A DNA stretch of 11,062 nucleotides from Candidatus Nomurabacteria bacterium. GTDB lineage: Bacteria; Patescibacteriota; Minisyncoccia; Phycocordibacterales; UBA9973. The stretch covers positions 1 through 11,062 of the forward strand of contig JAIOPY010000006.1 in NCBI GenBank assembly GCA_021413625.1, read 5' to 3'. Shown piece by piece: positions 6,687-9,407 of this stretch. Within the stretch, counting starts at the first letter, position 1. Every line of letters starts with the position of its first letter. Below the pieces are notes generated by a model that was given only the letters and a program-made list of their open reading frames with translations, did not search any database and was not told where the DNA came from. Made by a program: the position numbers and the translations under genes.

Positions 6687-6698
6687 TCTCAAAAGATT
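6678..6698 (-). terminator. Compact terminator overlapping the stop codon of the phosphatase-like gene
   Basis: On the minus strand AATCT-TTTG-AGATT makes a 5-bp stem followed after one G by six Ts (6678-6683). The TGA stop codon (6689-6691) is inside the hairpin. The stem is short and AT-rich, so termination may be weak. Confidence 0.4.
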
Positions 6699-7321
6699 TC
6701 TACCTTAGGAATCATGTCGTGATTTTCAACAGTCACAATAAAACCTCCTAAAAAATCATAAGGTTTTATTGTCCAATCATAGCTTTTTAAAAACAAAACA
6801 GAGCTGGTAATTTCACCATTTTTCTTAAAAAAAATCTCATAGAATTTCATGATAAAAGCATGACTAATGCAGACTACATTTCCATCCATATTTTTTATCA
6901 TTTGCATAAATGAATTTATCCTTAAAATAACTTCTTCGGGTTTTTCTATTGTTTTATTTTTTACAAAGGCTTTTACCAACTCTATTCGCAATTTATTTAC
7001 ATCTGGTTCTTTTTTATTTATAAATTTTGCATCTAGACTACCAGTTAAAGAAAATTTTATTTCATTTAAAAATGGAGAAACTTCAAAATAAGTATTAAAT
7101 AATTCTGCTGTTTGAGTGCACCGAGAAGCAGGTGAAGAATAAATTTTTACTGGTTTAAATTTTTTAAAAATCATTTTTATTTTATTTTGTGTTTCTGTAT
7201 CCTTAACTAAAATTTCAGGGTCATGTTTTTGCAAACCAATTAAATCAAAACCTGAAATTAAATCCTTTTCATTAATTCTATCCGAATATGGCGCTGGTCT
7301 TAAAAATATTATTTGTTTCAT
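6689..7321 (-). CDS. Histidine phosphatase superfamily-like protein without the RHG histidine
   Basis: The 210-residue protein has the layout of the histidine phosphatase (phosphoglycerate mutase-like) fold. It starts with a first strand KQIIFLRPAP, then IYSSPASRCTQTAELF (residues 60-75, like the family's SSP...R...TA motif with Arg67), FLNEIKF (84-90), and VVCISHAF (149-156) with His154 at the position of the second catalytic His. The defining first motif, normally L-R-H-G, reads L-R-P-A here: Arg8 is kept, but the phospho-accepting His is Pro9 and the Gly is Ala10. Family knowledge says this His is essential, so the protein is probably a non-catalytic binding or regulatory member, or a gene losing function. 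The frame is otherwise intact and very AT-rich. No ribosome site is seen, and no neighbour suggests a substrate. Confidence 0.7.
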   Translation of the reverse strand: MKQIIFLRPAPYSDRINEKDLISGFDLIGLQKHDPEILVKDTETQNKIKMIFKKFKPVKIYSSPASRCTQTAELFNTYFEVSPFLNEIKFSLTGSLDAKFINKKEPDVNKLRIELVKAFVKNKTIEKPEEVILRINSFMQMIKNMDGNVVCISHAFIMKFYEIFFKKNGEITSSVLFLKSYDWTIKPYDFLGGFIVTVENHDMIPKVEIF

Positions 7322-7406: not shown

Positions 7407-8078
7407 CTAGTAAACTACCAACTCTAGTCTTCTTCTTTCCGGCTGAAACGAATGGATTTTCGTAACAGCACGTAGGTTCTCCGTTTGATAATTCATTAAA
7501 ACGAGTTGTTCTCGTTCATGCATTATTTCGCGGAGGAGGAGGTATTGAGCGTAGTGCCTGATTTGAAGCGCTCTAACGCCATTACTTGCAAGCCTAACTC
7601 CTCCGTTGTATTGAAGGGAGTATCTTTCTCGTCTTTTGTCTTCATAGACTTGAAAGAAGTGCTCTAAATCCGGACATGCTTTAATCTCATCTCGGACTTT
7701 GGATTCCATTTCATATTGGCGCACATGCCAATCCGGAAATGCGTCAGAGAAAAGAAGGGCTGACCCAACCAGACTTCTTCTTTTAATCTCGCAACTAAGC
7801 TTTTCGCGTGAGATACGCACGGGCTCTCGGTTGAAATCTTTCAAAACATCTTCTTCTGTATCCGCAAGGAAAAAGAGTAAAGATGTTTTAGGGAAACGAG
7901 TTTGTAATTCAGCCGAGGCGCTCAAAGCATCAAGCATGAGAGAAGAAACCCCGTCGGCGATGCCTCCAGGAACATAATCTGGACATAGAGGCACCCAAAT
8001 TTCTGCTCCACTATCTAGCATTTGAGACAATCGCTTGGAAACTTCCCGCTTCAGAAAGGAAAACAATTTTTCAGGCAC
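7407..8078 (-). CDS. Unknown 223-residue protein under a Trp-codon attenuator
   Basis: I do not recognise this family. The protein looks like a soluble alpha/beta protein with no signal peptide or membrane segment. A basic amphipathic N-terminal helix leads into a strand EIWVPLCPDYVPGG (residues 27-39). A second strand SLLFFLADTEED follows at 66-77, then a charged helical middle with SDAFPDWHV (111-119), and a late helix with a strand, HYAQYLLLREIM and LVLMNY (175-197). The CPDY and ADTEED acidic strand ends look like possible active-site loops. The start is GTG at 8078, chosen because AGGAGG (8084-8089) stands 5 nt upstream; this is the best ribosome site in the window. The gene lies 26 nt beyond an intrinsic terminator (8104-8127) that is part of an apparent trp-type attenuator, so its expression should rise when charged tRNA-Trp is scarce. 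It contains only two Trp residues (29 and 117), and its function cannot be inferred from sequence. Confidence 0.8.
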   Translation of the reverse strand: MPEKLFSFLKREVSKRLSQMLDSGAEIWVPLCPDYVPGGIADGVSSLMLDALSASAELQTRFPKTSLLFFLADTEEDVLKDFNREPVRISREKLSCEIKRRSLVGSALLFSDAFPDWHVRQYEMESKVRDEIKACPDLEHFFQVYEDKRRERYSLQYNGGVRLASNGVRALQIRHYAQYLLLREIMHEREQLVLMNYQTENLRAVTKIHSFQPERRRLELVVY

Positions 8079-8103
8079 AATCTCCTCCTAAAAATCAAAG
8101 AAC

Positions 8104-8127
8104 AAAAAACGACGCTTGATTGCGCCG
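8104..8127 (-). terminator. Attenuator terminator (segments 3:4) before the 7407-8078 gene
   Basis: On the minus-strand RNA, CGGCGC (8122-8127) pairs with GCGUCG (8110-8115) around the loop AAUCAA, with one G-U pair, followed by six Us (8104-8109). It lies between a leader ORF and the ribosome site of the structural gene. This is where a regulated terminator would be, not an end-of-gene terminator. Its 5' arm can instead pair with 8159-8166. Confidence 0.8.
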
Positions 8128-8143
8128 GTCAGTGGGTTCCTTT

Positions 8144-8239
8144 TTAAAAAAGAGGAATCGACGCAAAAGCTTTTGCGTCCCACCAAGAATTAGCATTCAC
8201 CAAATTGGTATTCATCTGTAATTTCTCTAACATCATCAT
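8144..8239 (-). CDS. Putative trp-type leader peptide (31 codons, tandem Trp)
   Basis: The short frame starts at one of three consecutive ATGs (8239, 8236, 8233) or at an internal ATG at 8215, and ends with TAA at 8144-8146. Its C-terminal half reads NANSWWDAKAFASIPLF. The two Trp codons, UGG UGG at 8185-8180, are adjacent and sit immediately 5' of the palindrome GACGCAAAAGC. Trp is the rarest amino acid, so a pair at exactly this position is unlikely to be chance. There is no strong Shine-Dalgarno site. If the promoter -10 is the TAGCAT six bases before the first ATG, the leader would be translated from a leaderless end, as the core genes here seem to be; a weak AGAG precedes the internal ATG. 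Its expected role is to sense tRNA-Trp charging, and the peptide itself probably has no function. Confidence 0.7.
   Translation of the reverse strand: MMMLEKLQMNTNLVNANSWWDAKAFASIPLF
8160..8179. repeat. 20-bp perfect palindrome, pause/anti-antiterminator hairpin (segments 1:2)
   Basis: GACGCAAAAGCTTTTGCGTC is identical to its reverse complement. In the minus-strand RNA it would form a hairpin (about 8 bp with a 4-nt loop) directly after the tandem Trp codons. Its 3' arm plus the next base (GCGUCG) is repeated exactly as the 3' arm of the terminator at 8110-8115. This lets terminator segment 3 pair with either one. Confidence 0.85.
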
Positions 8240-8255
8240 ACTAGTATGCTAGTAT
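8238..8255. promoter_or_regulatory. TrpR-operator-like site overlapping the leader promoter
   Basis: On the minus strand ATACTAGCATACTAGTAT has two ACTAG elements exactly 8 bp apart, the spacing of the E. coli trp operator. It agrees with the consensus GTACTAGTTAACTAGTAC at 13 of 18 positions, and all mismatches are at the centre and outer edges. The -10 candidates CATACT or TAGCAT lie inside it, as TTAACT does in the E. coli trp promoter. A TrpR-family gene ends 58 bp upstream. The match is seen directly; binding is inferred. Confidence 0.6.
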
Positions 8256-8312: not shown

Positions 8313-8597
8313 TTATTTTACAATTTTCAAAACCCTTCTAAATCCTCCTTCTTTCTTACGCATCTCTCTGGAGCCACGAGTGACAGTTGCCACTCCTAAA
8401 TGCAATTCTTCCGCTATGGCTTGATGATGCTCCCCTTTTCCTAAACGCTTCACTATTTGCCACCTTACTCCAAGATTTTCAAATTCTCTCGGAGTTAAAA
8501 TATCTCTTATAAAATCAGCTAAAAGCTGTTTATCTTTAGCAATTTTATTAATTACCTCAATAACTTCTTTTTTATATTAGTCAATGTTATTTTTCAT
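8313..8597 (-). pseudogene. trpR: TrpR-family transcriptional repressor, interrupted by an early in-frame stop
   Basis: The frame from ATG at 8597 encodes MKNNID, then TAA (8577-8579), then 87 further codons ending with TAA at 8313-8315. The downstream part is unmistakably Trp-repressor-like. It reads ILTPREFENLGVRWQIVKRL, a helix-turn-helix GEHHQAIAEELHLGVATVTRGS, and REMRKK. The residues that hold L-tryptophan in E. coli TrpR (Thr44, Arg54, Arg84) are present in LTP, GVRW and TRGS, which argues for a true Trp-sensing TrpR and not the related YerC group. The ATG overlaps the end of trpS by 11 nt, so the two were co-expressed. No ATG, GTG or TTG occurs after the stop early enough to rescue the protein. 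One change (TAA from CAA) would restore a 94-residue repressor, so a recent nonsense mutation or a sequencing error are both possible. Confidence 0.8.
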
Positions 8598-9407
8598 AAA
8601 CATTCACTCCTATTTTTTCTCGCACTTCTGCCATTTTAGCTTCGGCAACTTTTTTAGCTTTTTCACCACCTTGTTTTAATATTTTAAGCGCACCTTCAAC
8701 ATCTTTTTCAATTGCTTTTCTTTTCTCACGCAGTGGCGCAATAAATTTTTCTAAATCTTCAATAAGTAGTTCTTTTAATTCTTTATATTTACCTGCTTTG
8801 CTTTCATATAAAGGCAAAAGCTCAGTTGCTGGACGTAGCAGGTTGTGTATGGCATACACATTTTTAGGAATGCCTTCACTAGAATCAGTAACAATACTCA
8901 TAACGCATTTTTTAATTTCTTCGTATTCGGCAAAAAGCGGAATGGTATTGCCGTAGCTCTTGCTCATTTTTCTGACATCGCGATGTCCGCATCATAAAGT
9001 AAAATATCTGCCGCCATCAACATCGGGTAATTAAAAGTACCTACATCAATTTCTTTATTTTTTGCTTCCGCATCTTTAAAAGCATGCGCACGCATTAGGT
9101 ATGGCATGGTAGTAATGTTGTCAAAAATCCAACAAAGTTCCGTATGAGCGGAAACATCCGACTGTTTGAAAAAAGTAACTTTTTTAGGGTCTAACCCAAG
9201 AGCTAGATAATCAAGCACAACTGCCTTTATATTTTCAGACATTTCTTTGGCAGTTTTTACAGATTTCAAAGCATGATAGTCCACAATTAAAACATAAACA
9301 TCATATGTGTCTTGGTCAGCCAAAAGCTGTTTCATCATGCCAAAATAGTTCCCAATATGGGGCTTGCCGGACGGTTGAATACCTGACAGTAATACTTTTT
9401 TAGACAT
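8587..9407 (-). pseudogene. trpS: Tryptophanyl-tRNA synthetase with internal deletion and frameshift
   Basis: Two frames cover one gene. The 5' part (9407 to 8964) has the class I HIGH region SGIQPSGKPHIGNY, IVDYHALK, MRAHAFKD and NYPMLMAADILLYDADI. The 3' part (8967 to 8587) begins with MSKSYGNTIPLF, the KMSKS loop, and runs to a normal C-terminus. Between DADI and KMSKS an intact enzyme has about 40-50 residues including VPVGxDQxQHxE, which bind tryptophan and ATP; all are absent and the frame shifts. As written the protein cannot be active, although an organism needs TrpRS. The junction lies at a 14-bp perfect palindrome (8974-8987), which suggests hairpin-mediated deletion or misassembly. 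The start at 9407 lies 6 nt after a TAATAT -10 candidate. The trpR frame follows and overlaps it. Confidence 0.88.
8974..8987. repeat. 14-bp perfect palindrome at the trpS deletion junction
   Basis: GACATCGCGATGTC equals its reverse complement. The left arm on the minus strand encodes the end of DADI from the 5' part, and the right arm leads into the codons before KMSKS in the 3' frame. In the intact gene these would have been 7-bp inverted repeats flanking the missing segment. Confidence 0.75.

Follow-up and report, generated by a model that had tools for sequence, protein, structure and literature searches.

The window analysed here is the whole of an 11,062-nucleotide stretch of DNA (contig JAIOPY010000006.1) from a Candidatus Nomurabacteria bacterium, a member of the Patescibacteria. 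On its minus strand, trpS and a TrpR-family frame are followed by an RNA leader (8239-8104), a gene for a protein of 223 aa (7407..8078) and, next downstream on the same strand, a gene of the histidine-phosphatase superfamily (6689..7321; PF00300, E 4e-9). The leader and the gene behind it are the subject of this report. The leader is very probably a ribosome-mediated transcription attenuator that senses the charging of the tryptophan tRNA (tRNA-Trp) under a TrpR-type operator, and it is predicted to control an operon of a class I synthetase-like or cyclodipeptide synthase (CDPS)-like protein and the histidine phosphatase. As a mechanism, such attenuation is already known. The novelty lies in the setting, an operon of a Patescibacterium that encodes an undescribed synthetase-like protein and is probably under two tiers of Trp control, other sensors being used elsewhere.

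The leader open reading frame (ORF; 8144..8239, MMMLEKLQMNTNLVNANSWWDAKAFASIPLF) has 31 codons, starts with an ATG at 8239, ends in ...NANSWWDAKAFASIPLF and is closed by a TAA at 8146-8144. It contains tandem Trp codons, UGG UGG (8185-8180), and at the next base begins the 1:2 (pause) hairpin (8179-8160), a perfect 20-nt palindrome (GACGCAAAAGCTTTTGCGTC) in which segment 1 (8179-8172) and segment 2 (8167-8160) form an 8-bp stem with a 4-nt loop. The antiterminator part of segment 2 (8166-8159, TTGCGTCG) can pair with segment 3 (8127-8120, CGGCGCAA) over 8 bp, one of them G-U. Bases 8127-8122 of segment 3 are used a second time as the 5' arm of an intrinsic terminator (8104..8127), whose stem is closed by 8115-8110 and followed by T6 at 8109-8104. 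The leader stop codon is located between segments 2 and 3, just beyond segment 2, and the Shine-Dalgarno sequence AGGAGG of the regulated gene follows at 8089-8084. The features of a trpL-type attenuator are all found: tandem Trp codons just 5' of segment 1, the 1:2, 2:3 and 3:4 options, a terminator with a U-tract, and a stop near segment 2. The original prediction had named these elements, with their order and spacing, the shared terminator arm and the position of the stop, and every one of them is present; the trp-type geometry which it claimed is real, as judged from these elements and from the comparison with the distant homologues L034 and L015 given below.

Chance does not readily produce such an arrangement. 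The full architecture appeared in 0 of 3000 dinucleotide shuffles of the window leader under strict criteria and in 0 of 5000 when looser stems with a tandem UGG were accepted. Since Trp makes up 11 of the 2449 residues in ten window ORFs, WW is expected about 0.0006 times in 31 codons. On folding, the leader (8079-8245) is more stable than 197 of 200 shuffles. For a ribosome stalled on the second UGG, with the bases beneath it removed, the window RNA ending with segment 3 adopts 2:3 (-11.4 kcal/mol). For a ribosome at the stop, the RNA 3' of it adopts the terminator fold (-9.3 kcal/mol).

The two foldings correspond to the two states of the proposed mechanism. When Trp is plentiful, the TrpR-family protein would sit on the operator, and for transcripts already begun the ribosome would pass UGG UGG and cover segment 2 at the stop (8146), so that 3:4 would terminate transcription. 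When Trp is scarce, a ribosome stalled on UGG UGG would cover segment 1, 2:3 would form ahead of the synthesis of segment 4, and transcription would continue into the gene. We infer the stalling, the kinetics, the repression and the transcription as an operon from the sequence.

To compare leaders, homologues were collected at several taxonomic levels. They were found in 2 of 147 genomes of the family, and in 4 of 397 genomes of the order with a short-branch profile (two of them weak). A long-branch profile gave 6 in the same 397 genomes and missed the window's own copy. Class genomes gave 4 matches among 383, 3 of which were true, and a later class search gave 1 in 216, which was already known; the phylum genomes (379) gave 7 matches, 1 of full length. 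Searches of the family, order or class around the genomes G757, G325 and G1222 yielded no new loci, and the viral contigs scanned held no relative of the 223-aa protein. One candidate, L012, was dropped, being a 55-position match inside a recombinase-like protein (by eye). The total leader comparison set is nine full-length loci.

Attenuators lie upstream of the gene in three of these nine loci (the window, L034 and L015), T-box-type leaders in five, and an operator only in one (genome G117). In L034, the leader peptide MKFSVQHNASWWPALISH has tandem UGG at the stall position and the 1:2, 2:3 and 3:4 options are present; in L015, the leader ends in ...SMIIWRSRFLFEKRAF, with UGG at the stall position and the same three options, and 0 of 3000 shuffles passed the strict test. 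The three attenuators have unrelated sequences that cannot be aligned, and the recurrence of the architecture in distant homologues is, on present appearance, convergent. A scan for attenuators in the window and 25 further loci (200,358 bases, counting both strands) returned 7 combinations. Two of these, in the window and in L015, have UGG at the stall position; L034, with its short or bulged stems, escaped the scan, and its attenuator was identified by reading. By eye, the stretch from the L015 attenuator to its gene contains another terminator-like hairpin and a small frame resembling a membrane peptide. The homologue comparison proposed together with the original prediction is thus favourable to it, with L034 and L015 having UGG attenuators of their own and the five others T-box-type leaders, and the contrary outcome, a terminator kept with its Trp codons lost, was seen in 0 of the nine loci.

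The five T-box-type leaders match Rfam RF00230 upstream of the gene, with E values of 2.4e-5 (L008), 8.8e-5 (L009), 1.3e-6 (L011), 2.5e-8 (L033) and 4.9e-4 (L035); in L035, a small frame separates the T-box from the gene, and in L008 a frame reading as trpS lies downstream. Like classical T-box leaders, all five have the GGUGGNACC core, stem II and a terminator, but their stem I is short and unusual. T-boxes are rare in these genomes, with one match each in 10 of 26 at E <= 0.1, one of them weak (G886), and in the long-branch genomes with a T-box match (G325, G349, G757) the match precedes this gene in 3 of 3. The control search also matched M. jannaschii, and therefore a weak T-box match is poor evidence by itself. 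At the variable T-box position, L008, L033 and L035 have C, and L009 and L011 have U. The TBDB paper (PMC7778990) gives U for 46% of its Trp T-boxes although the tRNA discriminator is G. As U is tolerated in those Trp T-boxes, all five leaders (UGGC or UGGU) are compatible with tRNA-Trp, without this being proof.

T-box matches were also seen before other genes. Two genomes have one match each before frames reading as ileS and thrS (L026, in contig C47 of the window's own genome G000, and L030, in contig C20 of G117). In L022 (G875), from about 1639 on, a T-box leader stands before a frame of 284 aa that includes a GHLMG stretch and may belong to another synthetase-like family. In L025 (G874), the minus strand by eye holds, in this order, a TrpS-like frame, a T-box with UGGC, a frame like a relative of glutamate-cysteine ligase and an aspartoacylase-like frame, and this is perhaps another Trp-controlled operon.

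Several observations weigh against the attenuator reading and its extension to the homologues. At equilibrium, the entire window leader without segment 1 still prefers the terminator (3:4, -13.3 kcal/mol), and the L034 leader without its segment 1 does likewise; 2:3 antitermination would therefore have to be kinetic, with 2:3 forming first. In the folding check with segment 1 blocked, which had been suggested along with the original prediction, 2:3 forms in RNA ending at segment 3 and the whole leader returns to 3:4. The isolated 2:3 stretch is of ordinary stability (z -1.24, with 22 of 200 shuffles equally stable), and the Shine-Dalgarno sequences of the leader ORFs are by eye weak or absent. 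The L015 leader has a single UGG, and in the looser single-UGG test 22 of 5000 of its shuffles passed; for L034, with short stems allowed, 1 of 5000 passed with a tandem and 42 of 5000 with a single UGG. The nearest homologue with DNA, that of G117 (53% identical; L005, Candidatus Nomurabacteria nzgw486), has by reading neither a terminator nor Trp codons in its leader and hence no attenuator. Of the 51 homologous proteins, a minority came with DNA. The T-box scores, 32-49 bits, are all below the RF00230 gathering score of 93, and a Trp specifier codon is not readable from the stem I variant of these leaders; by our own reading, UAC is confined to the 5' flank of the TyrS leader in L023, so the classical specifier rule did not transfer. 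Finally, six partial matches in frames of 388-478 aa with a CPDY/W-type domain (L016-L021), which were dropped from the set, have no Rfam match at E <= 0.01 and none of the scanned attenuator combinations, and the leader rule is therefore limited to the closer family. By eye, these six adjoin M24 aminopeptidase-like frames and, in some cases, cupin-like frames, and they represent a wider family.

Two of these points, the ordinary stability of the isolated 2:3 stretch and the absence of the element from G117, would also suit a plain intrinsic terminator (e.g., that of the trpR transcript) combined with a chance ORF and chance complementarity, without any Trp sensing. We consider this highly improbable, given that the architecture arose in none of the 8000 shuffles, that WW lies precisely where the ribosome would stall, as does UGG in two more homologues, and that trpS and a TrpR-family frame are the neighbours.

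The attenuator is probably the second tier of a two-tier control whose first tier is an operator. By eye, we assigned a promoter with a -35-like hexamer TTTACC (8280-8275), 18 bp before a -10-like hexamer TATACT (8256-8251), which would place the transcription start near 8244. The leader ORF start is a few bases from the predicted transcription start both in the window (8239) and in L015 (2707), and is less plain in L034; for the first two, near-leaderless initiation is suggested. The -10/start region of the window is covered by a trp-operator-like site (8237..8252), composed of CTAGCATACTAG (8252-8241) and the palindrome CATACTAGTATG (8248-8237), and CTAGCATACTAG has the half-site spacing of the E. 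coli trp operator consensus. The motif TACTAGTA has one copy in the window against 0.08 expected, with at least one copy in 16 of 200 shuffles, and one copy in locus L005 of G117, where it likewise shortly precedes the gene. Among the 31 loci compared it is confined to pieces of the window or of G117, and in the G117 leader it is the centre of a TrpR-type operator palindrome, which is perfect over 34 nt or more. For a TrpR regulon, the window thus has a predicted site (8252-8241) and a TrpR-family frame (8313..8576, minus strand; PF01371, E 4.6e-16), the sole PF01371 match in its own genome. This frame has an in-frame stop (8579-8577) between it and the upstream ATG at 8597, with no standard start codon after the stop.

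The window trpS (8587..9407, minus strand) consists of two overlapping ORFs (8964-9407 and 8587-8967) with about 50 residues missing between them. The gap lies before the KMSKS region and a 14-nt palindrome, GACATCGCGATGTC, is found at the junction; the split is either an assembly error or real decay. The only other PF00579 match in the genome reads as TyrS, and therefore this trpS is the only TrpRS seen in the assembly (93.94% complete). The order trpS, TrpR-family gene, homologue, histidine phosphatase is common to the window and G117 of the same genus (L004), and the TrpR-family gene of G117 is intact (PF01371 E 3.7e-16, above the cut-off; TIGR01321 E 2.6e-12, below it). Of the 9 genomes with the gene, 6 have a PF01371 match, which is next to the gene in just two cases (the window and G117). 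In G757 (L011, L038), the homologue's T-box has a TrpR-family gene about 1.2 kb 5' of it, with an aspartoacylase-like frame in between. A histidine phosphatase 3' of the gene was found by Pfam in the window, L004 and L015 (the last just under the cut-off) and by reading in L008 (no Pfam match), L011 and L033; none was seen in L009, L034 and L035.

A further point on the opposing side is the damaged look of trpS and of the TrpR-family frame in this assembly. Together with the operator-like site at the promoter and the operator-only leader of G117, it would fit a working attenuator that fine-tunes expression, or survives as a relic while the locus decays, with TrpR-family repression as the main signal. 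We think this unlikely: the window has an intact leader, an intact 223-aa gene and an intact phosphatase frame, and the long-branch homologues carry attenuators or T-boxes instead.

The product of the regulated gene is predicted to have a class I fold of the TyrRS/CDPS type, and it has a conserved CPDY motif with an invariant Cys. The original prediction had described the gene as not recognisable as a trp gene. No Pfam family matched the window protein at E <= 1, but the fold is recognisable, and the gene is immediately preceded by trpS and the TrpR-family gene. Sequence searches of Pfam, NCBIfam and the PDB with the protein and its alignments gave no usable match. The cyclodipeptide synthase family PF16715 is absent from the results for the window protein (E <= 1), from the 3 families matched by 10 members (E <= 10) and from the best 25 of 31 families matched by 35 members (E <= 1); the isonitrile synthase family PF05141 is absent for the window protein, for the 10 members and from the same best 25 of 31. 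The signatures of a class I Trp or Tyr synthetase are lacking as well, with HIGH and KMSKS absent by inspection and no PF00579 match in the window protein.

The structural comparison was carried out with two models. Foldseek gave 20 matches at E <= 0.001 with the first, the top one being the isonitrile synthase PIsnA (9dhm; E 3e-5, TMq 0.52), and none at that threshold with the second (best 1.4e-3). The isonitrile synthase family uses Trp and Tyr as substrates, and the protein might be an enzyme of this type (IsnA/PvcA/Dit1) acting on free Trp, not a CDPS-like enzyme on Trp-tRNA. The top rank of PIsnA speaks for this, but it comes from the first-model Foldseek matches, which the second model did not uphold; PIsnA has no sequence match and is not among the second-model matches listed, and IsnA is not among the best 50 VIA-align matches. 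We regard this alternative as quite unlikely. With the CDPS structures (Fdum-CDPS 5ocd, Nbra-CDPS 9i5m), the protein appears to share the fold, and it has a similar length and a nearly collinear alignment (model 6-223 with chain 10-226); it differs in having 7-14% identity among the matches listed, no Pfam match and, at about the inferred position of the catalytic Ser, the invariant Cys. This last correspondence is suggested by the Cys lying where the first core strand ends; Pro/Tyr and other polar residues are also invariant in the family. MjTyrRS 1-193 could be aligned with the protein model as well, and the protein ends near what we take to be the start of the KMSKS part of TyrRS, with CPDY presumably at the HIGH place. 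These two positions would suit a tRNA- or Trp-binding regulator or decoy made from a class I synthetase catalytic domain, which we doubt, as the invariant Cys, Pro/Tyr and other polar residues look catalytic.

An action of the protein on Trp or Trp-tRNA is the weaker part of our interpretation and is put forward tentatively. With similar reserve, the proteins could form an undescribed Patescibacteria enzyme family with a CDPS/TyrRS-type fold and an invariant Cys, possibly replacing the Ser of CDPS. The family might serve as a dedicated response to Trp starvation, with Trp or Trp-tRNA as its target and in many cases a histidine phosphatase as partner, and would have recruited unrelated Trp or tRNA sensors (operator, attenuator, T-box) several times.

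The closest regulatory parallel is the E. coli trp operon, which is controlled by a TrpR operator and the trpL attenuator. The window shares with it the tandem UGG, the 1:2, 2:3 and 3:4 segments, the stop just past segment 2 and CTAG-N4-CTAG over the promoter; it differs in its Patescibacteria host, in having no recognisable trp biosynthesis gene and in a leader ORF almost at the predicted transcription start. In Streptomyces coelicolor, an auxiliary indolmycin-resistant TrpRS gene is reportedly under ribosome-mediated attenuation at Trp codons. There too a Trp attenuator stands before a synthetase-fold gene and not a biosynthetic operon, but the window protein, without HIGH and KMSKS, is not a TrpRS. 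A working CDPS from Parcubacteria bacterium RAAC4_OD1_1, of the same phylum as the window host, is described in PMC11372833. No report of Trp attenuators or T-boxes in Patescibacteria, or of such control of CDPS-like genes, was among the matches listed in the open-licence PMC literature (subscription journals being outside this scope). A reduced Patescibacterium thus has an E. coli-like two-tier trp control architecture, here attached to a gene with no recognisable part in making Trp. The protein family concerned is linked to Trp or aminoacyl-tRNA through regulators of three kinds. It also raises the puzzle, now directly testable, of the reason for such hosts to induce a synthetase-like protein under Trp shortage.

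Elsewhere in the window, on the minus strand between 2016 and 3970, riboflavin genes lie in a row; by eye, they are riboflavin kinase-like, riboflavin synthase-like, ribH-like and GTP cyclohydrolase II-like.
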